Shown here: piece after piece, positions 1 through 17,292 of the stretch
How the letters are laid out: every line of letters begins with the position of its first letter
Position numbering within the stretch: position 1 is the stretch's first letter
Source of the DNA: Bryobacteraceae bacterium
GTDB lineage: Bacteria > Acidobacteriota > Terriglobia > Bryobacterales > Bryobacteraceae
Length of the DNA: 64,000 nucleotides
Direction of reading: 5' to 3'
NCBI GenBank assembly: GCA_029975915.1
Contig: JARKOC010000125.1
Span: forward strand, 1 to 64,000
The notes under the pieces: generated by a model
Database searches by the model: none
Told to the model about the DNA's origin: nothing
Seen by the model: the letters and a program-made list of their open reading frames with translations, nothing else
Translations under genes and position numbers: made by a program

Positions 1-231
1 GTGCTGCGGCTGATGGAGACGTTTTCGATAGGTGAAGTGAGCGCGGCCGTGAGGCAGGCGCAATTACTGCAGGCGATCAGCTTCGATGCGGTGAAGCACC
101 TGGTGCTGTGCGCCATCGACAAACGGCCGCCGAAGCTGGATTTGGAGAATTATCCGCACCTGCCTGTGGCCGAGGTGGCGCTGACGCGTGCCGCTGATTA
201 CCAGATGCTGCTCGAAGCGGGAGGGCGGTGA
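1..231 (+). CDS. istA: IS21 transposase IstA, C-terminal fragment (cut by window edge)
   Basis: The frame is open from base 1 to a TGA at 229-231 and gives the last 76 residues of an IS21 transposase. The tail has the usual form of IstA C-termini: a helical stretch, then PPKLDLENYPHLP, then VALTRAADYQMLL. The catalytic DDE core would lie upstream, outside the window. The stop overlaps the istB start (GTGA at 228-231), the normal translational coupling of istA and istB. Whether the full transposase is intact cannot be judged here. Confidence 0.85.
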   Translation: MLRLMETFSIGEVSAAVRQAQLLQAISFDAVKHLVLCAIDKRPPKLDLENYPHLPVAEVALTRAADYQMLLEAGGR

Positions 232-995
232 TGGAGGCGCCGCAGGTGCTGTTGGAGCATTATCTGAAGCAGTTGAAGCTGCCGACGATTCTGCGCGAGT
301 ACGCCAAGCTGGCCGAGCAGTGCGCCAAGGAGCGGGTGGACTTTCAGCGCTTTCTGCTGCGGTTGGTGGAAGCCGAGATGCTGGAGCGGGACCGCAAGGC
401 GACCGAGCGGCGGATCCGGGCGGCGAAGTTCACGGTGGTGAAGAGCCTGGAGACGTTCGATTTCCTGGCGATGCCGTCGCTGAACAAGAAGCTGGTGCTG
501 GAACTGGCGCGGTGCGAGTGGATCACGCGGCGCGAGAATGTGCTGGCGCTGGGCAATTCCGGCACAGGCAAGACGCACATCGCGCTGGCGCTGGGGCTGG
601 CGGCATGCCAGCGCGGCATGAGGGTGCGGTTCACCACGGCGGCGGCGCTGGTGCATGAGCTGAATGAGGCGCGGGATGAAAAGCGGCTGCTGCGCTTCCA
701 GAAACACCTGCTGCGACAGGAACTGTTGATTGTCGATGAACTGGGTTTCGTGCCGATATCGAAGACCGGGGCCGAGATGCTGTTTGAGGTTTTCAGCCAG
801 CGCTATGAGCGGGGCTCGACGCTGGTGACCAGCAACTTGCCGTTTGCCGAATGGACCGAGGTGCTGGGTTCGGAGCGGCTGACCGGGGCGCTGCTGGACC
901 GGCTGACGCACCACGTCCACATCCTGGAGATGAACGGCGACAGCTACCGGCTCAAAGACAGCAAACGGAAGCGGGCGGCAGAACGGGCCAAGTAA
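228..995 (+). CDS. istB: IS21 helper ATPase IstB
   Basis: IstB is the AAA+ ATPase that assists IstA in target choice and strand transfer. The 255-residue product has the usual family length. A Walker A motif, GNSGTGKT, lies near residue 110, a Walker B stretch, LLIVDELGF, near residue 165, and the sensor-like TSNLPFAEW near residue 205. Translation can begin at GTG 228, overlapping the istA stop, or at ATG 231. The reading frame is full length, so the helper looks functional. Confidence 0.95.
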   Translation: MMEAPQVLLEHYLKQLKLPTILREYAKLAEQCAKERVDFQRFLLRLVEAEMLERDRKATERRIRAAKFTVVKSLETFDFLAMPSLNKKLVLELARCEWITRRENVLALGNSGTGKTHIALALGLAACQRGMRVRFTTAAALVHELNEARDEKRLLRFQKHLLRQELLIVDELGFVPISKTGAEMLFEVFSQRYERGSTLVTSNLPFAEWTEVLGSERLTGALLDRLTHHVHILEMNGDSYRLKDSKRKRAAERAK

Positions 996-1020
996 GCGCA
1001 TAGGCCGCCAGAGGCTCGCG

Positions 1021-1106
1021 TGCGTTTTGGGGCCGGCTTGCGCTTCGCCCTAAACGCTCGGCCTCCGGCCTCGCAGGGCTGAAGCTCCAGCCGGCCCCAA
1101 AACGCA
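1021..1106. repeat. Long stem-loop downstream of istB
   Basis: The arms at 1021-1038 and 1089-1106 are exact inverted copies of 18 bp (TGCGTTTTGGGGCCGGCT and its complement) around a 50-nt loop, which itself contains GGCCTCCGGCC. No T-run follows, so it is not a classical intrinsic terminator. It may end or shield istB transcription or be a structural part of the IS. The structure is seen directly; the role is inferred. Confidence 0.75.
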
Positions 1107-1137
1107 GATCACCCGACCCCACAGAACGGCCCGAAGT

Positions 1138-1187
1138 GGTCCCCTTTTGCTCCGCCCTGGTGGTAACTTTTTACTTCGCCCTTGACA
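1138..1187. repeat. IS21 right-end tandem terminal repeats
   Basis: Read on the minus strand, two related 20-mers occur in direct orientation: GGGCGAAGTAAAAAGTTACC (1162-1181) and GGGCGGAGCAAAAGGGGACC (1138-1157), matching at about 15 of 20 positions. The outer copy is followed by the terminal CTTGACA at 1181-1187. Multiple internal repeats at the ends are typical IS21-family transposase binding sites. Confidence 0.7.
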
Positions 1188-2699
1188 GCGTGCGCGCCAC
1201 TGATCCAGAAGTTGCTGGCGATGCACAACCACTAGGGTGTTCACCTTCCGATGCGCAATGAGCCATGCTCCCACGGCCGTCTTTCCGAACGCGGTCGGCG
1301 CGCAGATCACGCCGATGTCATGGGCCTAGGCCTGCGTCACAGCTTCGTTTTGCGCAGGCAGCAACGTTCCACGAAATTCGACGTCGATTGGATGCCCGAG
1401 TGTGCGCTCATCCTGGATCTCCGGGTCAATCCCGTTAGCTCTGAGAAGATCCAGCGCTTCCTGCCCGCATCCTCGCGGCAGCCCGATGTGCTCCGGGAAG
1501 TTCTCGCCACAGGAGATGATGCGCGGCTTGCCGTAAGTGGAAAGGCGCATCGCCTGCGCCTTATAGAACTCAGGATTCTGGAATGCCGCCAGCCGGCAGA
1601 GACGATCCAGCATTGCGGTTGGCAGATCTTTCTTTTCGATGTAGGCCAAGTTCGAAAAGACAAACCGGACTCTCGCCGGAAGCGGACCGGCAATCGGCCT
1701 TTCACGTCTGGACTTGGATGGTGGCAACAACCACGGATCTACACCAGCTTCTTCTTCCGTCACTGCGAACCGAACTCCTACGAAGTTCCCCTCGGGGGCC
1801 AGTTCGTGGATGAGGGTCGGCAGCATGTCGGCCGGAATGCGTTCGACCCTGGACAAGTACTGCCACTGGTTCGGATACGGCTCCAACCACTCATCGACAA
1901 AGACGCTGTTGCCTGACTTCCTCGGGACCTTTTGGAGGGGCAGCGCGATCAGGTTGCCGAATCCTCCCTTGGGCATCGTGTCCTGGTTGGGGAAGAGCCG
2001 GTCATAGGAATCCAAACCAATCTCGTGGCGCGATTCGGTGGCCCTGGTCAGGAGCGCAGGGCCCAATCTGCGCGCGTCGGCCGCCCGCACTGGCCAGTCG
2101 AAGTAGAGCCAGATGTGTCCGCCGTTTCCAGACCTTGACCTTTCCAGCGAGGCCGGCACGTTGAAACGGCGGCATGTCGCCAGGAACACGACGGCGTCCT
2201 CGCGCCAGCCCGATTTGTCAAAGTCGACGGCAAGGAACCAACAAGTCTCGTCCGCCAGGAGGGGGTAGATCCCGATGGTCGCTTTGCCTTCGAGGTGATC
2301 TCGAATTGCCGCGTCGGTAAGCGGCCGTAGGATCCTCGTTTTTCGCGCGACCAGTTTCCGCTTGTCTGGTGGCGCCGCATGGATGGCATTCCAGTCCATA
2401 TCGGCAGCGGGTGAGTAGCCGTGTTTCTCCCCTCTCTCCCAGCGCAACGCGTAGATGTCTTCCCGCCCGCGGAACAGGCTCTTGAAAAGCTGCAGCTTCT
2501 CGCTGGGCGGCGATCCGTGATGGATGCTGGTACTGCTCTCCAATGATTTGACACCAGGTTGCTCCTCTGCCGGATTGGGCAGCAGGTCATGAGCGGCAAG
2601 GATCGAGCGAAAGTGCGCATTCTCCGCGTTGAGGCGAGCGCACTCAGCCAACGCCGCCTTCAGTTGCTCTTCCGACACACTCACCCGAGTCGCTTCCAT
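1188..2699 (-). pseudogene. TOTE-type archaeo-eukaryotic primase-helicase, interrupted
   Basis: The 457-codon open part starts with a coiled coil (about residues 8-38), then an archaeo-eukaryotic primase domain with catalytic VDFD (D159/D161), SGNGGHIW (190-197) and GFGNLIALPLQ (246-256), and ends where a superfamily 2 helicase begins (LLPAQNEAV). An in-frame TAG at 1326-1328 stops it. The same frame then continues as AHDIGV..APTAFGKT..WLIA..VNTLVVVHRQQLLDQW, that is, helicase motifs I and Ia, until the IS21 end at 1187. The gene is therefore broken twice. Its ATG (2699) overlaps the end of the AbiEii gene. Proteins of this make-up are known as TOTE conflict-system primase-helicases. The primase half could still be made. 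Confidence 0.85.
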
Positions 2700-3511
2700 G
2701 GTTCGCCTGGAAGCATCGAGAGGAACGAATCGTGGACGGATTCCGCTGCCCGGACGACATTGAACTGGCCCTTGGCAGTGTCGCTCAGCACCAACAGTGG
2801 TGCGACGTCGGCGCTGAAGACCGGATCGGAGAGCTTCTCTGCGAGGTTTGCTTCGAATTCGGCACGCGAAACACGGGCTCCGTTCACCTCCATGTAGTGC
2901 TGAAAGCAGCGAATTACCTTTTTGGCGTCCAGGTTAGGGAATCGATCGAGCGCTGTTGACAAGTCGAACAGATCACGACCTTTCTTCCGCTGATAGAAGG
3001 CTCGCAGCTTCGTGGCCAGCAGTTCTTCCAACTCATACGTTGTCACTTCGGCGGCACCGTCGAACCACGGGTTGCCGACGAACACCCGCTTCCTCGCCAA
3101 GCCCAGAACGGAGAAATGCTCGCGCGTGGTAACCTCGATCTTCAGCCGGAGAGGTGTGACGGGCGGGACCTCCGATTCAAATCGATACAGAAGCGTCATT
3201 CTTCCCTCCGACTGCTTGCGCCGAGGTTCGCCCAACCAGTGATCCAGTCTGTTCCGAAGCCCAGTGATCACCGAGCCGATGGCGCCGGCCTCGATTTGTA
3301 CGAGATCGATGTCTTCTGAATACCGCGATGCTGGACTTAGATACAGCTTGTGGAGTGCAGTCCCACCACGGAAGGCCAACGAAGACGAGAGCACTGAATC
3401 CGAGTAGATCTCGACCAGAGCCCGGGAGATTACCAGATCCTGCTCCACCTGTGCATCGCTGGACCAAGGCGCCGTGCGCCGCCATGCCGTGATGTGCGCG
3501 CGTGGGATCAT
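2681..3511 (-). CDS. AbiEii-family nucleotidyltransferase toxin
   Basis: The 276-residue product is a DUF1814/AbiEii-type nucleotidyltransferase, the toxin of type IV toxin-antitoxin pairs that act in phage abortive infection. Visible motifs are FRGGTALHKL (47-56), SEDIDLV (65-71, with the metal-binding aspartates D67 and D69) and KLRAFYQRKKGRDLFDL (168-184). Length and motif order fit the family, so the toxin looks intact. ATG 3511 overlaps the AbiEi stop by four bases (ATGA). Its 3' end overlaps the TOTE gene start by 19 bp, so the three genes form one tightly packed transcription unit. Known homologues transfer nucleotides to RNA targets; the substrate here is unknown. Confidence 0.9.
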   Translation of the reverse strand: MIPRAHITAWRRTAPWSSDAQVEQDLVISRALVEIYSDSVLSSSLAFRGGTALHKLYLSPASRYSEDIDLVQIEAGAIGSVITGLRNRLDHWLGEPRRKQSEGRMTLLYRFESEVPPVTPLRLKIEVTTREHFSVLGLARKRVFVGNPWFDGAAEVTTYELEELLATKLRAFYQRKKGRDLFDLSTALDRFPNLDAKKVIRCFQHYMEVNGARVSRAEFEANLAEKLSDPVFSADVAPLLVLSDTAKGQFNVVRAAESVHDSFLSMLPGEPWKRLG

Positions 3512-4323
3512 TCCTCCACCTCGATCCTCTCGTTCAGCAGCACTCGCCAGCGTTGGCTCCTCACTGCTCCCTGAGCGTCGCGATCCGCCCGCAGCGGAAT
3601 GGTACGAGGCTTCCGATCAGCGATCCAATTCGCCAACTGGCCAACCTTGTCCCCAGCGCCCGCGAGTTCCAGGAGGAGACCGCACCGTTGCACCGCCGCG
3701 AGTTCGGCCTCGGTTTCGGCCGCTCTCAACAATCGTTCCGGGTCGAACTTTTCCGCAAGTTCCGTGAACACGGAGACGATATTCCCAAAGCCCCCCGCTG
3801 CGAGGGCATAGCGAACAAGATCGAAAGCAGTCGCCTCTGGAGACGACACCAGCATCGTACCCGTCTCAACTTTCAGCGCGACGGTCGGGGTCTGGGCTTG
3901 ATGCCGTTTGTGGAAGAACCGCAGCTGAGTTCTGCCAGCGATGGCCGGCCGCAGGGCCCGATCGGTAATTACCTGGAACTCCTGGGCCTGCTGATGAGCG
4001 GCGCCATGTAGCGCAGCGGCGGAAAGGAGACCAACGTAATAAGGTCTGCCGTGGAACCGCATGAGCGCATCGATGTACCATGCCGGCGGCGGCGCGCCGG
4101 CCGACCGGTATTCAATCGGCACAATCACAAAGAAGCCCCGTCGCGGCGCGACGAGGCGGGTTTGCTTATGCAGACGCAAGGCAGCATGCCGGAAGGCGAT
4201 GTCCGACAGGCCACACGAGTCGGCCGCTTCCTCCCGAGTGAAAGTGTAGCGTCCAGACTCCTGAAGCCCGTCCACGAACCGGCTCAACGGTACGAGTTCC
4301 CGGGATGGCTGTTTCGTTCGCAC
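3508..4323 (-). CDS. AbiEi-family antitoxin/transcriptional regulator
   Basis: The 271-residue protein begins with a winged-helix segment (about residues 25-70, FTREEAADSCGLSDIAFRHA) followed by the AbiEi core (PAWYIDALMRFHGRPYYVGLLSAAALHGA) and a C-terminal helical part. AbiEi proteins neutralise AbiEii toxins and repress their own promoter. The start is GTG 4323. A near-consensus -10 (TATAGT) lies only eight bases upstream, so the message may be almost leaderless. It is first gene of the abiEi-abiEii-TOTE unit, with a four-base overlap to the toxin gene. No lesion is visible. Confidence 0.9.
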   Translation of the reverse strand: MRTKQPSRELVPLSRFVDGLQESGRYTFTREEAADSCGLSDIAFRHAALRLHKQTRLVAPRRGFFVIVPIEYRSAGAPPPAWYIDALMRFHGRPYYVGLLSAAALHGAAHQQAQEFQVITDRALRPAIAGRTQLRFFHKRHQAQTPTVALKVETGTMLVSSPEATAFDLVRYALAAGGFGNIVSVFTELAEKFDPERLLRAAETEAELAAVQRCGLLLELAGAGDKVGQLANWIADRKPRTIPLRADRDAQGAVRSQRWRVLLNERIEVEE

Positions 4324-4331
4324 AACAAACC

Positions 4332-4337
4332 ACTATA
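4332..4337 (-). promoter_or_regulatory. Candidate -10 box of the abiEi operon
   Basis: TATAGT on the minus strand lies eight bases before the GTG start of abiEi. No good -35 is seen at 16-18 bp. If used, transcription would start within two or three bases of the start codon and the mRNA would be nearly leaderless, which agrees with the lack of a Shine-Dalgarno sequence. Confidence 0.4.
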
Positions 4338-4771
4338 CGCTACGTTACGAGAAGGAAACCGCACATTGAGAACGCCATCGGCATTAAGAAACCTTTCGAG
4401 AACGGGTTGGAAAGCACGATTGCCGGGGAGCCACACCCAAATTCCGCAACTTCCCGCCACCCCGTTTTGCTTGACGCCATCGCCATCTGCGGTCCCCGTT
4501 ATCTCAAACATTCGCCAGTATTTGTGTTTCCGCGCGGTTCTCCGGTTGGAAACGCCTCCGACCGGGCCACGCGCTCCACCGCCATGGTTCGGTTCGTTGG
4601 CCTCTCTCAACCCTTCAAACTCTCCGTTTTCTCCGTTGACAGGTCCGCGTTTGTTGACAGGCCGGTTGAGCGCGTAGGCCGGTCTGGCGATTTTCGAACT
4701 GCTGCCCAAGGCGCTTGACAGGGTCTGTTCCGTTACACCGTTGTAGTAACATTGGATTTACGGAGGTGGCC
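4338..4771. other. Intergenic region, abiEi to abrB remnant
   Basis: No convincing gene is seen here. The stretch contains two copies of GTTGACAGG (near 4635 and 4653), a TTGACA at 4715-4720 that could be a -35 for the AbrB-like gene, and GTTAC/GTAAC inverted arms at 4732-4736 and 4746-4750 just before that gene, a possible autoregulatory operator. Confidence 0.4.
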
Positions 4772-4954
4772 ATGGTTAAGAAGCTGACCAAACATGGGAA
4801 CAGTTTGGCACTGGTGATCGACCGGCCGATCCTCGACCTGCTGAAAATCGACGTCGAGACCCCACTGGAAATCAGCACGGACGGCCAGCGTCTCATCGTG
4901 ACGCCCACTGTGCCCTCCGCGCGTCGCGCATGCCGATGGTCTTTGCCGGAATGA
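4772..4954 (+). pseudogene. AbrB/MazE-like antitoxin, truncated
   Basis: ATG 4772 follows a good ribosome site (CGGAGG at 4761-4766). The first 48 residues are a normal SpoVT/AbrB swapped-hairpin domain (MVKKLTKHGNSLALVID..., ending RLIVTPT). After that the expected acidic toxin-binding tail is missing: the frame runs through an unrelated 12-residue end and stops. The 3' part overlaps antisense a small ORF (4893-5075), so a recombination junction near 4920 probably replaced the tail. Intact relatives are usually followed by a Doc or PIN toxin gene; none is present here. Antitoxin binding is probably lost; DNA binding may remain. Confidence 0.65.
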
Positions 4955-5075
4955 TTACCTCGACCACCTCGTCGCAGGGGACTCCGTCCCTGACCAGTAC
5001 GTGGACCGTCGATCGCTGTCGCGGGATGCGGATCCTGGCCGGTAATCCGTGGCTGGTGGGAGGCTTGATCGGCAT
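4893..5075 (-). CDS. Small hypothetical protein (60 aa)
   Basis: Not recognised. Starting at ATG 5075, the product is basic at the N-terminus and then has a strand-like segment, TVHVLVRDGVPCDEVVEVIIPAK, that looks like a folded small domain rather than chance sequence. It begins five bases after the stop of the upstream ORF on the same strand, so the two could be co-transcribed. Its last ten or so codons are antisense to the truncated AbrB-like gene and may not be original. No strong ribosome site is visible. A chance ORF cannot be excluded. Confidence 0.35.
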   Translation of the reverse strand: MPIKPPTSHGLPARIRIPRQRSTVHVLVRDGVPCDEVVEVIIPAKTIGMRDARRAQWASR

Positions 5076-5080
5076 GGGCC

Positions 5081-5407
5081 TTACAGGCCCCGGTTCGCCA
5101 GGAACGTGTGCCGGCTGGCGCCCTTCCTCTTGCCAAGGCCCAAGAGCACGCCGGGCGTGACCATCGGCAGGTTGGCCAGTTCCGAAAGCTGCGCTAGGCC
5201 GGCGTGGGCGGCCCGCTCGTACCCGTAACGCGTGGTATCCACCGAGACTTGTGCTGCGCGATGCCGGTGGTCCGCGGCGATGAACCGGATGGAGATGCCG
5301 GGCTCGACCCAGATCGCCCGTCCCTGCGCGACGAAGCGTTTGGCCCGGTTCTTGTTCGTAAACCGGCAATCGGAAACCGGATTCTCGATCCGGATGCTCT
5401 TGAGCAT
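5081..5407 (-). CDS. Hypothetical protein (108 aa)
   Basis: Not recognised, but the composition looks protein-like: RFTNKNRAKRFVAQGRAIWV near the N-terminus, then SIRFIAADHRHRAAQ and a leucine-rich middle, with a basic tail. ATG 5407 is the first start. A perfect short hairpin (5433-5450) lies 26 bp upstream. It is followed closely by the 60-residue ORF on the same strand. The two small genes sit between the truncated antitoxin and the ThuA-TIR gene, in mobile surroundings. They could be a fragment of a mobile element or a small accessory module. Confidence 0.45.
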   Translation of the reverse strand: MLKSIRIENPVSDCRFTNKNRAKRFVAQGRAIWVEPGISIRFIAADHRHRAAQVSVDTTRYGYERAAHAGLAQLSELANLPMVTPGVLLGLGKRKGASRHTFLANRGL

Positions 5408-5432
5408 AGTTCTGGTGTCTGCCCGGGTGGGA

Positions 5433-5450
5433 TTGCGGGTATGCCCGCAA
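5433..5450. repeat. Short hairpin TTGCGGG-TATG-CCCGCAA
   Basis: Perfect 7-bp arms (5433-5439 and 5444-5450) around a 4-nt loop, upstream of the 108-residue ORF. It could be an operator or a transcript hairpin; no T-run follows on either strand. Confidence 0.6.
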
Positions 5451-5766
5451 GAGAGCCGAAGGCTCGTTAGGAGGGATGCGGGATTTGCGAGAGGCCCCGC
5501 GCGCCTCTGGGGAACGCCGTGCGAGCGTTCAATTCCTGAGTATCATCACGGTGCCTCAGTCGTCAACAGAGAACCGCTAATCCAAAACAACAGCCGCCTC
5601 CTGCGGGTATAGCTTCCGCACCGCGTCACACCGGAGCTGTAGCCGAGGAAGCCGTTTGGGCGGGACGGCGATCATAAGCTCATGTGCGCTCTGTGACGGG
5701 TGTCCGTCCATGGATGCGGTTCAGATCCAACGGCATCAACGATGACCATGGGATCTCGGCATCCGA
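5451..5766. other. Intergenic region without recognised features
   Basis: About 316 bases between the small ORFs and the 3' end of the ThuA-TIR gene. No coding sequence with plausible composition, RNA gene or repeat was recognised on either strand. Confidence 0.5.
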
Positions 5767-6849
5767 TTAGCCGCGGCCCTGTAAGGCTTGGAGAAATTCC
5801 TCAAACCGGTGGTAGTCGATCCATTGCCGCTGTCTCAGCCGGTCAGGCAAGGCCCGAGGGTCCAGCCGCAGGATGATGGGCGTGATTGTCCGGCCCAACA
5901 CCCATGCCGCACCCCACTCGGTCTTTACCCATTCGCTTTCGAGGCTCTCTGGCGTTGCAAGCACCGCCAGTTCCCGGCTGTTCAGAAGTCCCTGCCGGAT
6001 CACTGCCTCCCAAACCGCCCCGGGCCCTATTGCTTTCTCGTCGAGGAACACCCGTATCCCCAGCGCCTCCGCTCGTCGTTCAATCGCCCGTGCCTCATCT
6101 CGATTTGTCGATGAAAAGCTCAGGAACAGATCGTATTCGAAGGTCCGCTCGTTTGTTTCCTTGGCTACCCATCGCGCCGCGTTTGCTGCCACTCTCAAGA
6201 AATTCGAGTCAGCGTACATCGCTGCAAAGTGGCCTAACGAGAACCAAGCCAAACGCCCCGCACCAAGCGTTCTGCAAGCCGCTACAGGAATCGGACCGTC
6301 GCGGAACCGCTGCGGCGCAAATACACGATCACTTACATCCGCCGAGAGCAGCGGTCGAACGCCCGGAGCAAGATTCTGCGCCCACACCTCTTCGGCCAGC
6401 TCGAATGTCTCGACTCCTTCGAGGATTGGGTGACCGGCTCCGGCCGGCATAGGATCAACGGGAAACCGCGAGAGTGGGTCGCCCGGTACCGGGACTGCCA
6501 GATTGACCTGCACGAAGCTGCGATTCGGCTCAACGACCAGTTGCATCGCACCATACGCGGCCCGGATTCCGCACGCCGCGATGAAATCCTTGTTGTGGGC
6601 GTAAGGATATACCGAGTCATGGATCGCGAAGACGCCTCCGCCAGCCTCAGCAAAGCGCAGAATCTGATCTTCCGGTATTGATCCTTCCGCGCTCGGTATG
6701 CTGTTTAGAATCAGGACCTCGGCCGCATCCAATTGGTCCGGTACCGCTGTCACCGTCCGAACAGTGAAGCCCTCAACCTCAGCCAATCGGCCTTGGAGAG
6801 TCCCCGGAGCAGGATGGCCCTGTGTTTCGACAACGCAAACTCTCGGCAT
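5767..6849 (-). CDS. ThuA-like domain fused to a TIR domain
   Basis: The 360-residue protein has two parts. Residues 1-230 follow the ThuA/glutamine-amidotransferase-like fold: strand VLILNSIPS, then GGGVFAIHDSVYPYAHNKDFIAACG (71-94), HPILEGVETFEL (140-151) and GRLAWFSLGHF (198-208). Residues 238-360 are a TIR domain: YDLFLSFSSTNRDEA at the start, a BB-loop region near GIRVFLDEKAI, and a SxWxxxE motif (S305, W307, E311) that matches the catalytic glutamate position of NAD-cleaving TIR enzymes. There is no signal peptide, so it should act in the cytoplasm. ATG 6849 follows a TATAAT box inside a palindrome. It lies among abortive-infection genes. I infer a NAD-consuming or nucleotide-signalling effector with ThuA as sensor or substrate-binding part. 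The domain calls are firm; the role is not. Confidence 0.85.
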   Translation of the reverse strand: MPRVCVVETQGHPAPGTLQGRLAEVEGFTVRTVTAVPDQLDAAEVLILNSIPSAEGSIPEDQILRFAEAGGGVFAIHDSVYPYAHNKDFIAACGIRAAYGAMQLVVEPNRSFVQVNLAVPVPGDPLSRFPVDPMPAGAGHPILEGVETFELAEEVWAQNLAPGVRPLLSADVSDRVFAPQRFRDGPIPVAACRTLGAGRLAWFSLGHFAAMYADSNFLRVAANAARWVAKETNERTFEYDLFLSFSSTNRDEARAIERRAEALGIRVFLDEKAIGPGAVWEAVIRQGLLNSRELAVLATPESLESEWVKTEWGAAWVLGRTITPIILRLDPRALPDRLRQRQWIDYHRFEEFLQALQGRG

Positions 6850-6861
6850 GACAGAATTGAT

Positions 6862-6876
6862 CGGCTATTATAGCCG
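6862..6876 (-). promoter_or_regulatory. -10 box within a perfect palindrome before the ThuA-TIR gene
   Basis: CGGCTATTATAGCCG has 6-bp arms around a TTA centre and contains the consensus TATAAT (6867-6872) on the minus strand. The predicted start of transcription is about ten bases before ATG 6849. No clear -35 is seen. A repressor bound at the palindrome would block this promoter. The regulator is not identified. Confidence 0.5.
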
Positions 6877-7031
6877 CTCCGAACAACTGCCGCTCGCGCG
6901 CCGCCATGGGCAACGTGGGCGCTCTGTATAAGAGAGGAAAAATCTGTCAGGTTTCGGGAACGTGCAATGCTGCCCATCCGACCCATTCCTCCCAAGCCGT
7001 TGGGAACAGATCACGAGTCGCGGGCGGCATT

Positions 7032-7148
7032 CTGGGACGGATCATCGCACGCTACCCAGGCGGCAGCGAATCGAGTTTGGACGCCAATTGGACTCCAAAT
7101 GGACTCCAGAGAGGGGTTTCGAAGGAGGGAAGGTCTGTAACTCATTGA
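7032..7148 (+). pseudogene. Possible remnant of a tyrosine recombinase C-terminus
   Basis: The plus-strand reading ...ARYPGGSESSLDANWTPNGLQ... up to a TGA at 7146-7148 resembles the ends of many phage-type integrases (YxHLxPGG..xxVxxLD, followed by a variable tail). It points at, and ends six bases before, the tRNA-Pro 3' end, where the integrase gene of a tRNA-targeting element would normally sit. The catalytic core is absent. The similarity is short and judged by eye; the call is tentative. The rest of 6850-7154 shows nothing else. Confidence 0.3.
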
Positions 7149-7154
7149 GTTATT

Positions 7155-7232
7155 TGGTCGGGCCGCCGGGATTTGAACCCGGGACCTCTTGCACCCCAAG
7201 CAAGCGCGCTAGCCAGGCTGCGCCACGGCCCG
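7155..7232 (-). tRNA. tRNA-Pro (GGG anticodon)
   Basis: Reading the minus strand, the acceptor arms CGGGCCG/CGGCCCG pair fully; a D arm (GCGC/GCGC), an anticodon arm CTTGC-TTGGGGT-GCAAG with anticodon GGG, a T arm CCGGG-TTCAAAT-CCCGG, discriminator A and an encoded CCA follow. Length is 78 nt. It lies 97 bp downstream of the sulfatase gene on the same strand. Its 3' end faces the accessory region at 1-7150, so it may have served as an attachment site. Confidence 0.97.
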
Positions 7233-7329
7233 ATCCATCAACGACGTTTCCATTCTCGCACGTTTGCGGCGGACTTGCCTATCGCGTTGAGAGCAAAGCC
7301 ACGATCCGGCGCGTATTCAAATGGACGGT

Positions 7330-10341
<3,012 letters not shown>

Positions 10342-10524
10342 GAACTAAGGCGCCACTCCAGGTTTCGGATGAGTGTGCTGTGATACTCCGGGTGGTGTGG
10401 CGTTTCCAATGCGATCGGGATACGGACGGCGGGGCGGACTCCTGCCCTCCTCGTATCCCGGATCCTGCGCGTTTCGGGCTAGTATCCGTACTCAGATTCA
10501 TGGGACAACGGTCGAAGAGAACTG

Positions 10525-13494
10525 ATGAAGCCGACCGATCTGCGTGACCAGCTCCGGTATGCCTACGATCCGCAGTTCAGGGGTCTGCACCAGCTCATGG
10601 CGCGCCGCGTACGCACTATCCTCATGGTGTCAAACCCCTATGAGTCGTTCAGCCTCGCGCGGGACTATTCCCTGACCCAGGATATCTACGGGGCATCACA
10701 ACTCCTCCATCTTCAGAATGTGCCGCAGATCGTCACCGCTCTTTCGGGCAAAGAGGGCCTGAGCATCCTTGACAGAGAGCATTTCGATCTTGTGCTCGTC
10801 TCGAGCAACCTGCCCGATGTGGAGACGCCCGAGTTCGGCTGTGGAGTCAAACAAGCCCAGCCTGGTTTGCCCGTGGTTATGGTTGTGTTCGACGGCTCGT
10901 GGTTCGACCAGGCTTATCAGGGCGGCGAACCCGAGGGTATCGACTGGATCTTCGCCTGGCGAGGCAGCGCCAACGTGCTCCTCTCCATCATGAAACTTGT
11001 CGAGGATAGTCAGAACGTCGACCGGGACCTCTCCATCGCTTCCATTGGGACCATCCTCGTGGTCGAGGACTCCGTCGAGCATTACTCCCTCATCCTGCCT
11101 CACCTGTACTCGCTTCTCATGCAACGCACCTTCATGCTCGTGCCTGAGGGCATCAATGAAAGCGATCGTCAGATTAGGACCCGTGTCCGCCCCAAGGTTC
11201 TGCTCGCCAGAACGTTTGGCTGGGCGAGACAGCTCTTCGACAAGTACGAGGCTTCGCTTGTAGGCATCATCTCCGATCTGCATACCTTCCACGACGACCG
11301 CCTTGATCCTGCAACAGGCGCAAGGTTCCTGCGCGACGTCGCCGAACGGGCCCCGGGAGTCCCAATCCTGGTGCACTCCTCCGAGCCAAACGCCGCTGAC
11401 GTCGCCGAGATGGTCGGCGCACGCTGTCTTAGCAAGCGCGGGGCCAATGTACGCGCCGGCATTGAACAATTCGTCCTAGAGGACATCGGCTTCGGCGACT
11501 TCGAGTTCCGCACGCCCGATGGCACGGTCGTTGCCCGGGCGGCGAACCTCTGGGAGATGGAAAAGGCGATCGAGACCGTTCCATTCGATTCACTTGTCTA
11601 CCACGTCGAGCGTCGTGACTTCTCCCAGTGGTTCCGTGCGCGTGGCGAAACCACGCTGGCCTCGGTCCTGCGGCCTATCCTCGTCTCCGATTTCGCCTCG
11701 ATGGGTTCCTTGCGGGATTTTCTGATCAACGCAGTCTCGATCGCCCGGAAAGAGAAATACAGAGGAGCGATCGCCGATTTCCGTCCGCCGGAATTCGACC
11801 CTGAGTATCCCTTCCTCGTGCTGGGCAAGGGCTCCCTCGGCGGGAAGGGCCGTGGTTTAGCATTCGTATTCCGGCAACTCAGCCAATGGTCAACAGACGA
11901 CCGCATCCAGGGCGTCAAGGTGCGCCTGCCGCGCACGCTCGTCATCGGCGCGAACGAATCCGACTCATTCCTTGCTGGCAACAAGATCGATGGCGCCTCG
12001 CTCGGCGCGCTCAGTGACGCCGAGATCTGCCGGCGCTTCACCGCTGGGCAATTCGAACGCGGTCTGCGTGACTGCCTGGAACTGTACGTCCAGCGGGTCA
12101 ATGTCCCGCTGGCCGTCCGTTCCTCGGGTTTGCTCGAGGACTCGCACCGCCAACCCTTGGCCGGTCTCTACTCTACCTACATGCTCCCCAACAACCACCC
12201 CGATCCGGCGGTGAGGTTGCAGCATCTCGCGACGGCGGTAAAACTCGTCTTCGCTTCGGCCCTCCTTTCGCGCCCGCGTAAATACCTGGACTCGATCGGA
12301 CACGATCTAACCGAGGCGCGCATGGCGGTGATCATTCAGGAGGTTGCAGGCCGGCGCTACGGCCGCTACTTCTACCCGGCCATCTCGGGTGTCGCACAAT
12401 CCCACAACTACTATCCTGTCTTCCAAATGAAGCCCGAGGATGGCGTGGCGACAATCGCTCTGGGCCTCGGCAAGCAGGTTGTCGAAGGCGGCGATGCGGT
12501 TCGCTTTTGCCCCCGCTATCCGCAGGTCTTGCCGCAGTTCCGTTCCCCTGCGGAGGTCATGAAAGTCGCGCAGCGGGAGTTCTTCGCCCTCGACCTCGAA
12601 CGGACCGATGTCGACCTCCTTGCCGGCACTGACGCCACTCTTTCCAGGCTGGACCTTTCACATGCCGAGCTCCACGGCACGCTCGAGTTGGCTGGCAGCG
12701 TCGTGGCCATGGACGAAGACCGCATCTACGACAGCCTTTCCCGCCGCGGCAGCCGCGTCGTTACGTTCGCCCGCATTCTCAAGCACAATGCCTTTCCGCT
12801 CTGCGCCATTCTGACCGAGATCTTTCAGGCCTGCCGCCGGGATCTCGGTTTCGCTGTTGAAATCGAGTTTGCCATCGACCTGGATGCTGACCGCTCGCGC
12901 GAACCCGAGTTTCATTTTCTCCAGATGCGCCCGCTCGTCGCCACCCGCGAGCGGTGCGACATACTCCTGGACACAATCCCGCAAGACAAGCTGCTTTGCC
13001 GCTCGCAACGTGTCCTGGGGAACGGATCCATCGAAGGCATCCGCGACATCGTGTACATCGATGCCGCCGAGTTCGATCGCGCTAGAAGTGCTGACGTTGC
13101 CGCTGCGGTCGCGCAAGTCAATGAGAAGTTGGCGCGGGAGCGCCGGCCATACATACTCTTAGGTCCCGGCCGGTGGGGATCGTTCGACCCTTGGATCGGA
13201 ATCCCCGTCGCTTGGCACCAGATTTCCTTCGCGCGTGTCATTATTGAAGTCCCCGCGAAGGATTTGCCGATGGAGCCCTCCCAGGGCACGCACTTCTTCC
13301 ACAACATGACTTCGGCGGGCATCGGCTACTTCTCGCTCAGCGGCTCCGGTGGCGGTGAGTTCGTTCATTGGGACCTGCTCCGGTCGTTGCCGGGCAGGCA
13401 ACTCCCCATTGGCCTGCGGCACGTCCGCCTTCCCCAAGCCTTGACTATCAGGATGGACGGCGAGCGGCAGGAAGGCATCATCGCAATCGCGTAA
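10525..13494 (+). CDS. Receiver-like protein with a PEP-synthase-type nucleotide/pyruvate-binding domain
   Basis: A 989-residue protein. The N-terminal third looks like one or two response-regulator-like modules (LDREHFDLVLVSSNLPDVE around residue 90; TILVVEDSVEHYSLILPHL around 175). The middle to C-terminal part has the ATP-grasp-like PPDK/PEP-synthase N-terminal domain: GKGSLGGKGRGLAFV, LAVRSSGLLEDS..LAGLYSTY and FHFLQMRPL. The phosphohistidine swivel and the PEP-barrel of true PEP synthase are not present; instead there is a unique end with LGPGRWGSFDPW and GTHFFHNMTSAGIGY. I infer a regulatory or atypical phosphotransfer protein. Downstream genes are likely separate, since 287 bp follow. 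Confidence 0.75.
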   Translation: MKPTDLRDQLRYAYDPQFRGLHQLMARRVRTILMVSNPYESFSLARDYSLTQDIYGASQLLHLQNVPQIVTALSGKEGLSILDREHFDLVLVSSNLPDVETPEFGCGVKQAQPGLPVVMVVFDGSWFDQAYQGGEPEGIDWIFAWRGSANVLLSIMKLVEDSQNVDRDLSIASIGTILVVEDSVEHYSLILPHLYSLLMQRTFMLVPEGINESDRQIRTRVRPKVLLARTFGWARQLFDKYEASLVGIISDLHTFHDDRLDPATGARFLRDVAERAPGVPILVHSSEPNAADVAEMVGARCLSKRGANVRAGIEQFVLEDIGFGDFEFRTPDGTVVARAANLWEMEKAIETVPFDSLVYHVERRDFSQWFRARGETTLASVLRPILVSDFASMGSLRDFLINAVSIARKEKYRGAIADFRPPEFDPEYPFLVLGKGSLGGKGRGLAFVFRQLSQWSTDDRIQGVKVRLPRTLVIGANESDSFLAGNKIDGASLGALSDAEICRRFTAGQFERGLRDCLELYVQRVNVPLAVRSSGLLEDSHRQPLAGLYSTYMLPNNHPDPAVRLQHLATAVKLVFASALLSRPRKYLDSIGHDLTEARMAVIIQEVAGRRYGRYFYPAISGVAQSHNYYPVFQMKPEDGVATIALGLGKQVVEGGDAVRFCPRYPQVLPQFRSPAEVMKVAQREFFALDLERTDVDLLAGTDATLSRLDLSHAELHGTLELAGSVVAMDEDRIYDSLSRRGSRVVTFARILKHNAFPLCAILTEIFQACRRDLGFAVEIEFAIDLDADRSREPEFHFLQMRPLVATRERCDILLDTIPQDKLLCRSQRVLGNGSIEGIRDIVYIDAAEFDRARSADVAAAVAQVNEKLARERRPYILLGPGRWGSFDPWIGIPVAWHQISFARVIIEVPAKDLPMEPSQGTHFFHNMTSAGIGYFSLSGSGGGEFVHWDLLRSLPGRQLPIGLRHVRLPQALTIRMDGERQEGIIAIA

Positions 13495-13781
13495 TTACAC
13501 CAGGCTCCTCCGCTCTTTGGCCCTCGGCTTCGCTAGCGGGGCGCATGATCATTGGCGCGGCCAGCCGAGCCGCCGGTTGGCCATCTCCAGAGGACGCCCT
13601 GTGTTGCACGCCACTTGATCGCGCACCCCTCCAATGTGCATGCTGGTTCATTGCCCATGCTGATAGGATGAGTTCGTGATTCTCCGGTTGGGCACGGTCT
13701 TCTAGCACCGATTGGGGAATTCTTGCGTGGGCTGCGGCCAGTTCGAAGTTCCATCGTCCATAAGGTAAGGAATACGCAGGC

Positions 13782-15818
13782 ATGGCGGTTGAACATCCCA
13801 GGCGGCCCGAATCAATGCCTGCGAACTTCCCGATCTTGGGCAATGATCCGGCCACTGGTTCCGGCACGGACCAAGCCCATGCGCCAGCGATCCTCAATTC
13901 CACGCCCCGGCGCCTGCTGGCTTCACTCGTGCTGATCGCTGGGACGGTTCTTCCGCCCTGGCTCGCTGGAATGGCTACCCATCAGCCCCAGACTCGCGAT
14001 ATCCACATCGAGGCATATCGCTATGGATTCAACCCCTCAAGAATCCACGCCAACCGCGGCGACCGGCTCCGGCTGACGTTCTCAACGCGAGACACCGGAC
14101 AGAGTTTCTTCCTCCAGGAGTACGACCTCCATGTCTCGATCACCCCAGGCAACAAACAGGTCCTGGTCCAGCGTCTGTCCCGTCCTCACGATCCCGCCGT
14201 GCTTATGGAATCTGTGGAGATCGTCGCGGGACTGCCTGGATGGCACGGCTGGCTCGGCTCTAAGGCCCATTTCCGCAACCACACCTACAACGGGCCTTTG
14301 CATGGCACTGAGAGAGGAGATCTGATTGTCGCCCCCAACTTCTTGCTCTACGGCGGACTGGGGCTCCTGACAGCCATCCCCCTGGCTTCGCTTATTCGGG
14401 GTCATCGCCGCTCGCCGGGCGGCGAACGGCGCCTGAACTTGTTCCAACGCCTTCCCTGGCTGAAGCGCGCAATGAAGGCCCCGTCGTTTCAATCCAGCTT
14501 GACCGTCCCGATGCTGGGCGTCTTCTGGTTCATCATCCTGGCCGGATTGTTCGGCACGAAGGTCGCAGGACGTAATGCCGGCACGATGATCATCTGGGTC
14601 CTCTGGATGTCGGCCCTGATTATTGTGCTTGTCCCAATCGGCGGCAGGATCTGGTGCACGGTTTGTCCATTGCCTGTTATCGGCGAGTGGTGGCAGCGCG
14701 CCAGGCTCTCCTCGAATCCGGCGCCCGCAGGCGGCCGGGCAGTCCTCCGGTTCTTTAGCGTCCCGTTGATCTGGCCTGAGTGGCTCAGCAACGCCTGGCC
14801 CCGAGTCATCCTCTTCCTGCTTCTCGGAACCTTCAGCACCGCGCTAGTCGCCCTGCCTCCTGCCACGAGTTGGATGCTCGTCGCTCTTGTCCTCATGGCC
14901 ACCCTGGTGTCATTGTTCCCGGAGCAGCGGCTCTTCTGCCGGTATCTGTGTCCGATCAACAGTTACATCAGCCTCTACTCGACGGCTGGCAGAGTCATTG
15001 TGCGCGCCGTCTCGCCTGAGCCCTGCGCGGCATGCACGGAGAAGTTCTGCCTGACGGGGAGCGCAAAAGGGTGGGGATGCCCCTATGGACTCTGCATGGG
15101 GGAGATCAGTCGGAATAATGATTGCGGGGCATGTATGGAGTGCGTCAAAACTTGCGCGTATGACAATGTCGCGGTCTTCTGGCGAAAATCCGGGAGAGAC
15201 ACATCAATAGCCAGCTATGGGGAAGCCTGGCAGTCCATTGTTATGTTCGCCCTCGCCTGCTTGTACTGCTACATTAACCTTGGCGCGTGGGACAACATCC
15301 GGAATTGGATCGACATCGTGGATAACGGGAATTGGGGATCGTTTGGTGTGTACGCTTTGCTCGTGTGGGCCTTCTGCCTCGGCGTTCTGCCGCTAGTATG
15401 GTTCTTGTTGACTAAGGCGGGGATCTCCGCCGGCGGATTGGCTCTGAGTGCCGGCGGCCAGTTCAGAGCCACTGCGGCGGCCCTGATTCCCATCGGGTTG
15501 GCCTGCTGGATCGCCTTTGCTATCGAGTCGTTCCTCTCCATGCTGACGTTCCTGCTCCAAAGTCTTTCGGACCCGTTCAACTGGGGATGGAACCTGCTCG
15601 GCATGGCGGGCAGCGCTTGGCACATTCCTTTTGCGCCTGCCATCCCGTGGCTTCAGGTTGCATGTGTGCTTATTGGCTCCGCCTATTCGATACGGACGCT
15701 GTACGGGTGCTGGCGCCAGGACGCCCTGCCCCAACGCCGATCCTTGCTCTCCACCCTGCCCATGGGCTCGTTCGTTTGGGCGGCTGGGGCGGGAATGATT
15801 TTGTTCTTCGCTGGTTGA
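13782..15818 (+). CDS. Cupredoxin-like/polyferredoxin membrane protein (NapH/NosR-type core)
   Basis: The 678-residue protein has a first hydrophobic segment (about 44-64), an extracytoplasmic cupredoxin-like part (IHIEAYRYGFNPSRIHANRGD..., residues 75-125) and then a multi-pass membrane core with iron-sulfur motifs: WCTVCPLP, RYLCPINSY, CAACTEKFC and CGACMECVKTC. These are arranged as in NapH/NosR/CcoG-like membrane ferredoxins. The start may be ATG 13782 or the ATG at 13815. Fourteen bases later a VCBS protein gene follows, and then a TPR gene overlapping it, so the three are probably one operon. I infer membrane electron transfer, perhaps to a copper or periplasmic protein; the partner enzyme is not in the window. 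Confidence 0.75.
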   Translation: MAVEHPRRPESMPANFPILGNDPATGSGTDQAHAPAILNSTPRRLLASLVLIAGTVLPPWLAGMATHQPQTRDIHIEAYRYGFNPSRIHANRGDRLRLTFSTRDTGQSFFLQEYDLHVSITPGNKQVLVQRLSRPHDPAVLMESVEIVAGLPGWHGWLGSKAHFRNHTYNGPLHGTERGDLIVAPNFLLYGGLGLLTAIPLASLIRGHRRSPGGERRLNLFQRLPWLKRAMKAPSFQSSLTVPMLGVFWFIILAGLFGTKVAGRNAGTMIIWVLWMSALIIVLVPIGGRIWCTVCPLPVIGEWWQRARLSSNPAPAGGRAVLRFFSVPLIWPEWLSNAWPRVILFLLLGTFSTALVALPPATSWMLVALVLMATLVSLFPEQRLFCRYLCPINSYISLYSTAGRVIVRAVSPEPCAACTEKFCLTGSAKGWGCPYGLCMGEISRNNDCGACMECVKTCAYDNVAVFWRKSGRDTSIASYGEAWQSIVMFALACLYCYINLGAWDNIRNWIDIVDNGNWGSFGVYALLVWAFCLGVLPLVWFLLTKAGISAGGLALSAGGQFRATAAALIPIGLACWIAFAIESFLSMLTFLLQSLSDPFNWGWNLLGMAGSAWHIPFAPAIPWLQVACVLIGSAYSIRTLYGCWRQDALPQRRSLLSTLPMGSFVWAAGAGMILFFAG

Positions 15819-15831
15819 GGAGGAATCTGGA

Positions 15832-17292
15832 ATGCCGAAAGGGGTGAACCGGCCCACGTCGCCGGCCCGGAAAAGCTCTCCACTGGTGACAGGGGTCATC
15901 ATCGCCGCCGTTCTGATTGGGGTGCCTCTGGCGGTCCTGCTTTATCAGGCACAGCGTTCGGGCCTCTCCTTCGGGCAACTGCTCGCGCATCTGTTTAAGC
16001 GGGCCCGCGTCGAAAGTGGCGCCGGGAGTGCGTTGAAGGCGGCGAGGGGGGAAAAGATCGAGTTCTTGACTCCTGTCCCGATTGGATTCGCCTCCGCCGA
16101 GCCGCCTCGAATAGGCAGCCTCGAGATTGTCGATCTTGATAAGGACGGTGTGCTGGATGTCCTGGTGGCTGACATGCTCGCCGGCCGCATCGGCTGGATT
16201 CGCCAATCACCTGCGGGCGCGTTCACGGAGCGATGGATCAGCCCCGCGCTGCCTGCCCCAGCACACGTCAGCGCGGCCGACATCGACAAGGACGGCGATC
16301 TGGACGTTCTCGTGGCCTGCATGGGCCTGCTGTTCCCGTCGAACGACAAAATCGGCTCGGTCGTCATCCTGGAAAACGATGGACGGCAGAACTTCACTCC
16401 GCGGACCGTGATCAGCCGTATCGCCAGAGTCACTGACGTTCGTGGCGCTGATTTGAATGGCGATGACCGGATGGATCTGGTGGTCGGCCAGTTCGGCTAT
16501 GACGACGGCGAAACACGCTGGATGGAAAACCTCGGCAACGGACAGTTCCGGTCGCATATTCTCCAAAGCCTCTCCGGAGTGATTCATACGATTCCCGCGG
16601 ATGTGGACAAGGACGGCGACATGGATGTCGTCAGCCTCGTGACACAGGAATGGGAAGAGGTCTACGTATTTGAGAATGACGGACGCGGCAATTTCAAATC
16701 CCACCTGATTTGGGGCAGCACCAACGAAGACTACGGCAGCAGCGGTATCAGGCTGACTGATCTCAATCAGGATGGCGCCTTGGACATCCTGCTGACGAAC
16801 GGGGATGCCTTCGATTACCTTCCACCACGCCCGCGCCCCTGGCACAGCGTCCAGTGGCTTGAAAACCGGGGCGGCTTCAAGTATCAACACCGCTCCATCG
16901 GACAATTCCCGGGGGCCAGCGGCGCTGTCGCGGCCGACCTCGATGGTGATGGAGATCTGGACGTTGCGGCAGTCACCTGTTATAACCTCTGGGAGCGCCC
17001 TGACGCGCAGAGCATCGTCTGGTTTGAAAACGATGGCAAAATGAACTTCACCCAGCGTGACATCAGTGGCACGCCGACCCATCTCATCAGCCTCGAATCC
17101 GCCGACATGAACAAAGATGGCAAGCCTGATCTGGTCTCCGTGCGGATGAATGTCTACCAGCCTTTCACTAAAGACGGGCGAGTCATTCTCTGGCTGAACC
17201 ATTGGGGCCTTTCCCAGCACGCGGCCGGCCGGTCCAACCCTCATCGGGCGTTGCCACTCCTCGGCCGCCTCCTGTCACGAGGCAATCCATGA
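15832..17292 (+). CDS. VCBS/FG-GAP repeat beta-propeller protein, membrane anchored
   Basis: The 486-residue product has one N-terminal membrane segment (about 19-40, LVTGVIIAAVLIGVPLAVLLY) followed by seven calcium-loop repeats of the type DxDKDGDLDVLVA, for example DLDKDGVLDVLVA, DIDKDGDLDVLVA, DLNGDDRMDLVVG, DVDKDGDMDVVS, DLNQDGALDILL, DLDGDGDLDVAAV and DMNKDGKPDLVS. This predicts a seven-bladed integrin-like propeller outside the cytoplasmic membrane. It lies between the polyferredoxin gene and the TPR gene and its TGA overlaps the next ATG. The role in the three-gene set is unknown; binding of a partner protein or glycan is an inference. Confidence 0.8.
   Translation: MPKGVNRPTSPARKSSPLVTGVIIAAVLIGVPLAVLLYQAQRSGLSFGQLLAHLFKRARVESGAGSALKAARGEKIEFLTPVPIGFASAEPPRIGSLEIVDLDKDGVLDVLVADMLAGRIGWIRQSPAGAFTERWISPALPAPAHVSAADIDKDGDLDVLVACMGLLFPSNDKIGSVVILENDGRQNFTPRTVISRIARVTDVRGADLNGDDRMDLVVGQFGYDDGETRWMENLGNGQFRSHILQSLSGVIHTIPADVDKDGDMDVVSLVTQEWEEVYVFENDGRGNFKSHLIWGSTNEDYGSSGIRLTDLNQDGALDILLTNGDAFDYLPPRPRPWHSVQWLENRGGFKYQHRSIGQFPGASGAVAADLDGDGDLDVAAVTCYNLWERPDAQSIVWFENDGKMNFTQRDISGTPTHLISLESADMNKDGKPDLVSVRMNVYQPFTKDGRVILWLNHWGLSQHAAGRSNPHRALPLLGRLLSRGNP

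Follow-up and report, generated by a model that had tools for sequence, protein, structure and literature searches.

A conserved ThuA-TIR fusion protein in Bryobacterales as a candidate one-gene anti-phage effector

How a TIR enzyme learns that a phage has entered the cell is, to our knowledge, known for few bacterial systems only. The window analysed here (64,000 nucleotides of contig JARKOC010000125.1, from a soil-type Bryobacteraceae bacterium) raises this question through a single gene that joins a TIR domain to a ThuA-like domain; ThuA proteins are otherwise metabolic. The gene occupies 5767..6849 of the minus strand, from its ATG at 6849 to its stop codon at 5767-5769, and encodes 360 amino acids, with a ThuA-like domain at residues 1-232 (6154..6849) and a TIR domain at residues 237-352 (5794..6141). 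An earlier note, made from the sequence letters, had given the coordinates of the gene correctly, leaving out the strand. What is such a protein for? The answer we propose, and to which we give about even chances, is that it is a self-contained, one-gene TIR NADase (an enzyme cleaving nicotinamide adenine dinucleotide, NAD) that serves as an effector of abortive phage defence and is carried on mobile DNA in Bryobacterales.

Architecture, relatives and selection

Both halves are recognised by Pfam: ThuA (PF06283) matches residues 21-228 (E-value 7.9e-15, 56.1 bits, cut-off 33.4) and TIR_2 (PF13676) matches residues 242-352 (1.3e-20, 74.5 bits, cut-off 28). The N-terminal half belongs to the ThuA family by its score over the curated cut-off and by a predicted structure whose fold agrees, as the earlier note had supposed, and against the PDB it reaches the ThuA-like entry 1t0b with an E-value of 0.017-0.02 as a single sequence and of 9.3e-5 with a profile. 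PDB sequence matches of the C-terminal half are TIRs of the AbTIR type, the half has the TIR fold of a TIR NADase, and the three motif residues named in the note (S305, W307 and E311) all stand at their positions. E311 (codon 5917..5919, minus strand) aligns with the glutamate column of AbTIR (“DWTNYE”) and SARM1 (“DWVHKE”), which we take to be catalytic, and is the putative catalytic residue by this alignment and by conservation: each of the 19 full-length fusions aligned has all three residues, and of the 53 family rows that reach position 311 with a residue, 52 have Glu and one, P0049, has Arg.

To collect relatives, we scored the 7998 candidates sharing the most words with the query, a sample and not a census, yielding 58 proteins (the window's own protein, P0002, among them), 52 of which carry both Pfam domains. 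A more divergent ThuA-TIR protein, P0066 (42% identity in ThuA), came from searching with the ThuA half. The resulting alignment has 60 rows (P0001-P0058, P0065 and P0066; P0059, which has no ThuA, was excluded), and in 40 of these each domain is 90% or more complete. An assembly artefact or a chance open reading frame (ORF) is ruled out by these counts, and the architecture is seen on many contigs; the pairing of ThuA and TIR in one protein is real and conserved among relatives. Five of the 60 rows (P0043, P0047, P0052, P0054 and P0065) have no TIR, and in P0042, on a contig of 491 kb, the TIR goes out of frame part-way, so the gene can be lost by disruption. These six could be taken for free-standing ThuA genes, but with 56-78% identity to the fusion ThuA they look like truncated fusions instead.

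Pairwise identities in ThuA and in TIR are correlated (r 0.70 for the 780 pairs that 40 rows give; Mantel test, 0 of 2000 permutations), which disfavours domain-swapping inside the family and suggests that the two halves mostly travel together, a correlation that shared ancestry alone would also give. Between the window and its relative at locus L001, the ratio of nonsynonymous to synonymous substitution rates (dN/dS) is 0.107 in ThuA and 0.077 in TIR, and the gene is under purifying selection; for remoter pairs the ratio is rough or undefined, synonymous sites being near saturation.

Searching with the TIR half retrieved 19 proteins among 340 candidates, comprising 14 ThuA-TIR fusions and five proteins with other partners (43-52% TIR identity). 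The N-terminal parts of P0060-P0063 match no Pfam family above cut-off. Those of P0059 and P0061 are related (39% identity, 1e-32) and the other partner domains have no BLASTP similarity to one another or to ThuA (best E-value 0.21), giving five partner types besides ThuA. In a mixed alignment of ten TIR proteins S305, W307, E311 and G277 are invariant, and since partners are exchanged while the motif is kept, the TIR half looks like an effector module. In P0064 (511 residues) the order is reversed, the TIR being followed by a HAD hydrolase (Hydrolase_3, 2.2e-10) with weak matches to phosphomannomutase and to sucrose- and trehalose-phosphatase; this protein is a second case of a TIR, here closely related to that of the fusion, beside a sugar-enzyme-like fold, and hints that this TIR lineage may repeatedly recruit such folds as sensors. 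Separately, the Bryobacterales SJ154 genome contains two tandem TIR stretches (G001:C648:19149-19902, loci L006 and L008), which the fusion profile scores at 46 and 43 bits.

The ThuA half: sensor, scaffold or enzyme

To see how the fused ThuA departs from its relatives, we compared 20 fusion domains (those of the 19 aligned full-length fusions and of P0066) with 25 non-fused frames from three related genomes. The latter were drawn from 32 family matches after leaving out three fusions, one match that had no locus and three second domains of frames already used. No TIR profile matches any of the 25 at an E-value of 1 or less, whereas the control is matched. The fusion domains form one group, set apart with 100/100 support by a branch of 2.29 changes per column, in a tree where several non-fused rows are long-branched and where, as the program warns, L027 joins the fusions by a long branch.

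Much of the motif is common to the fusions and to 88-100% of the non-fused frames (G70, H77, H140-P141, E154, G198-R199, G206-H207 and W227). Another set is fixed in all 20 fusions and present in at most 8% of the non-fused frames (E8, H12, P13, T32, D78, W156, Q158, N159, F182 and Y212, together with some hydrophobic positions and E153, where 84% of the non-fused frames have Asp), while R181 and D174, also fixed in the fusions, are found in 28% and 16% of the non-fused frames, respectively. H12 probably corresponds to a His that the non-fused frames have in this loop and that the alignment places a few residues away, and we do not count it as new in the fusions. W156, Q158, N159, D174, R181 and F182 are identical in 60 of 60 family rows. 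Position 124 is His in 92% of the 25 non-fused frames and is Asp (53) or Asn (3) in the 56 family rows that have a residue at this position. By eye, the fusions begin right at the first strand while many non-fused frames open with a hydrophobic leader, and from this start the fusion proteins look cytosolic.

Judged from the ThuA fold, the conserved residues would form a pocket, and the suggestion of the earlier note that ThuA senses a sugar or nucleotide and gates NAD cleavage fits motif residues that are retained and re-tuned. A more specific form of it, in which a carbohydrate-metabolism domain has turned into a metabolite sensor that directly fires the TIR NADase, would make the fusion a new one-gene immune switch, with a sugar- or nucleotide-sugar-like ligand that changes in infection or marks phage DNA or glycans; we put it forward tentatively and regard it as doubtful.

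The same residues bear on two other roles for this half. It might be a protein receptor or scaffold, recognising a phage protein or driving oligomerisation around an incidental pocket, with the TIR still an NADase effector. Such a scaffold would not need the motif and the many polar residues that are invariant over divergent fusions, and although this conservation is not decisive, it argues against a pure scaffold, a role we think rather unlikely. Alternatively, the protein might be bifunctional, its ThuA half being an active isomerase or hydrolase that acts on a sugar or an ADP-ribose-like compound, either a substrate of its own or the product of the TIR. Most motif residues are retained (H77, H140, E154, R199 and H207 among them), and H12 supplies a His to the loop that follows the first strand, a few residues from where the non-fused frames have theirs; this is in line with bifunctionality, while the replacement of the His at 124 argues, again not decisively, against a plain ThuA enzyme; the literature searched offered nothing usable on a ThuA ligand and no ThuA enzyme mechanism, and we consider this role unlikely.

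Distribution and neighbourhoods

Using the best few candidates per genome, we found the fusion in three genomes (G001, G002 and G210) out of 237 from the family to which the centre genome, G002, belongs, in the same three of 257 genomes of the order, and in G002 as the sole match among 396 genomes sampled across the phylum; two of the three positive genomes were known from a prior contig scan. That scan of genome contigs gave two loci, in Bryobacterales SJ154 and in a Candidatus Sulfopaludibacter, and P0044, identical in sequence to the gene of G210, is named uncultured Paludibaculum. With three carriers among hundreds of genomes, the fusion gene is accessory, rare and patchily distributed, and the matches that come with a taxonomy lie in Bryobacterales (Acidobacteriota).

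Downstream of the gene in the window, the anti-phage-type surroundings described in the earlier note were borne out: an AbiEi antitoxin (3508..4323, minus strand; PF09407, 1.9e-30; PADLOC AbiEi), an AbiEii nucleotidyltransferase toxin (2681..3511, minus strand; PF08843, 1.8e-34; PADLOC AbiEii) and a TOTE-conflict primase (AEP) domain protein (1326..2699, minus strand; PF22548, 9.3e-89) lie 1.4-4.4 kb away. In this stretch (1326-4323, minus strand) the AbiEi/AbiEii pair is followed by a lone TOTE primase, beside an IS21 IstB ATPase (228..995, plus strand; PF01695, 4.8e-78), and no other TOTE parts were found among the ORFs scanned in the window. By eye a small ORF at 4715-4954 (plus strand) resembles an AbrB/MazE-type antitoxin, a reading that was dropped, the ORF having no Pfam match at an E-value of 0.01 or less. 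On the other side stand tRNA-Pro(GGG) (7155..7232, minus strand; found by ARAGORN), about 305 nt upstream of the fusion gene, a sulfatase, a glutamate dehydrogenase and a PPDK-type protein.

A TATAAT hexamer, read by eye at 6867..6872 (minus strand), stands 17 nt before the ATG, and L001 has the same hexamer at the same spacing, L002 CATAAT 18 nt and L012 TATGAT 11 nt before theirs; the consensus promoter scan did not report the one at 6867..6872. Similar hexamers at four loci suggest that the gene may possibly have its own promoter, with a very short leader. We also considered integration at tRNA-Pro and rejected it, the window having no second copy of the tRNA 3'-end; nor was a simple site lacking the ThuA-TIR segment found in the relatives G167 and G168. 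Both carry copies of the 3' half of tRNA-Pro with about 67 nt downstream of it; window 7088-7201 (minus strand) recurs in G168 at L062:13153-13267 and L063:10187-10279, where ARAGORN finds no tRNA, and these two copies are possible remnants of integration.

At L001 the neighbours include a phage terminase with a gpA nuclease domain (2.6e-52), a ParB-like protein (PHROG 2.2e-23; under the Pfam cut-off), a weak sigma-factor match, and at 4736-5538 two ORFs without a Pfam match, one resembling a large serine recombinase at its C-terminal end and the other the companion usual for such enzymes. The left side of L002 holds an aminotransferase and other metabolic genes, and its right side (12922-14680) a BbrUII/HgiDII-like restriction gene (HATPase and nuclease) in two adjacent frames. 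Within 2.5 kb of the gene at L012 are ParA, a Mutator-family transposase and a RecQ fragment; farther out, within about 8 kb, are a BNR-repeat/lectin-like protein and an FAD oxidoreductase. When all frames of 80 or more residues were compared across window 1-17000, L001, L002 and L012, the one match besides the gene and its shadow frames was between receptor-like large frames of L002 and L012 (26%). This lack of a notable shared neighbour fits a one-gene unit.

These surroundings bear on two further explanations. Thoeris ThsB, with which the protein shares a TIR domain and weak PADLOC similarity (best 2.6e-5, 21.8 bits), needs a ThsA partner, and unlike in Thoeris no ThsA-type partner was found among the scanned neighbours. 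Instead of draining NAD, the TIR might nonetheless produce a signal of the cyclic ADP-ribose type that acts on an effector from another locus, as Thoeris TIRs do according to PMC12578639 and PMC11204291. No obvious effector (SIR2/SLOG, macro or similar) was found in the scanned ORFs of window 1-13494, L001, part of L002 and L012, and the four loci have no notable neighbour in common; we judge this distinctly unlikely. Neither a pAgo gene, as in SPARTA, nor a cyclic-nucleotide synthase was seen among the scanned neighbours.

The protein might also have nothing to do with defence, being a stress or programmed-death protein, or one whose TIR is a non-enzymatic scaffold tied to sugar metabolism. 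The metabolic background of ThuA proteins would suit this, as would their number here (each related genome has 9-13 family matches, counting the fusion and double domains) and the nearby sulfatase (window) and BNR-repeat protein (L012). Set against it are the patchy distribution, the mobile and defence neighbours, the intact TIR motif and the finding that no sugar gene recurs beside the fusion gene across the four loci, which leave it very improbable.

Several observations weigh against a mobile abortive-defence effector as well. No relative was found by tblastn against phage and plasmid records or confirmed in a scan of viral contigs. Some neighbours are of an ordinary chromosomal or carbohydrate type: the sulfatase and glutamate dehydrogenase upstream in the window (90 of 237 family genomes have such sulfatases, which are thus common), the aminotransferase of L002 and the farther neighbours at L012. 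The BbrUII-like pieces score 126 and 46 bits against an NCBIfam cut-off of 550, and the neighbourhoods are those of no more than four loci. Matches of P0001 in PADLOC, PHROGs and NCBIfam are confined to TIR stretches, with NCBIfam scores far under the cut-offs, and loop 274-279 of the predicted structure has a pLDDT (the per-residue confidence of the prediction) below 50. Finally, ThuA may be catalytic instead of a sensor.

A proposed mechanism and known TIR systems

Taking together the architecture, the fold prediction, the conserved TIR motif and largely conserved ThuA motif, the purifying selection, the distribution and the neighbours, we infer the NADase activity, assembly, ligand, trigger and anti-phage effect of an abortive effector of the following kind. 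At rest, the C-terminal TIR domains would be kept inactive. The N-terminal ThuA, a specialised relative of sugar-metabolism ThuA proteins, would bind an infection cue, most likely a small ligand resembling a sugar or nucleotide and possibly a phage component. Binding would let the TIR domains assemble, and E311 of the assembled TIRs would cleave NAD+, so that the cell stops before phage release.

The TIR fold and the catalytic-Glu column are shared with the bacterial TIR NADases AbTIR and BtTIR, in which we know of no ThuA domain. The fold and most motif residues of the N-terminal half are those of ThuA-like proteins (PF06283; PDB 1t0b, 4e5v and 4jqs); unlike the 25 non-fused frames, the fusion carries a TIR and its ThuA group sits on a long branch. 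TIR-SAVED and TIR-STING bind cyclic nucleotides that a partner produces. Like these and Cat1, the fusion would join a ligand-binding domain to a TIR NADase; Cat1 (CARF-TIR), whose ligand is a cyclic nucleotide from a partner, is the ligand-driven version of TIR gating (PMC12162218). Closest in layout is SpbK of ICEBs1 (Bacillus subtilis), likewise a single protein with an N-terminal recognition domain and a C-terminal TIR on a mobile element, and an NADase, as the fusion is predicted to be. Its N-terminal 4-helix bundle binds the phage portal YonE, whereupon the TIRs cluster and NAD is lost (passages of PMC12847820), whereas the N-terminal part of the fusion is ThuA-like and about 230 residues long.

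The earlier note knew of no described system of this kind, and we found none in the literature searched, which covered no subscription papers and few preprints; neither NCBIfam nor PADLOC matches the whole ThuA-TIR architecture. Within that literature ThuA and TIR were mentioned together in an irrelevant paper and a plant-endophyte review, the one search made on antiphage TIR domains in Acidobacteria gave no paper, and term searches did not find ThuA in the conflict-system surveys PMC9503650 and PMC7159879. A TIR joined to conserved, re-tuned residues of a metabolic enzyme makes the question of sensing directly testable, and identifying the ligand of the pocket would reveal the trigger. If the proposal is true, this would be the first carbohydrate-type domain linked to TIR suicide, as far as the literature searched shows.
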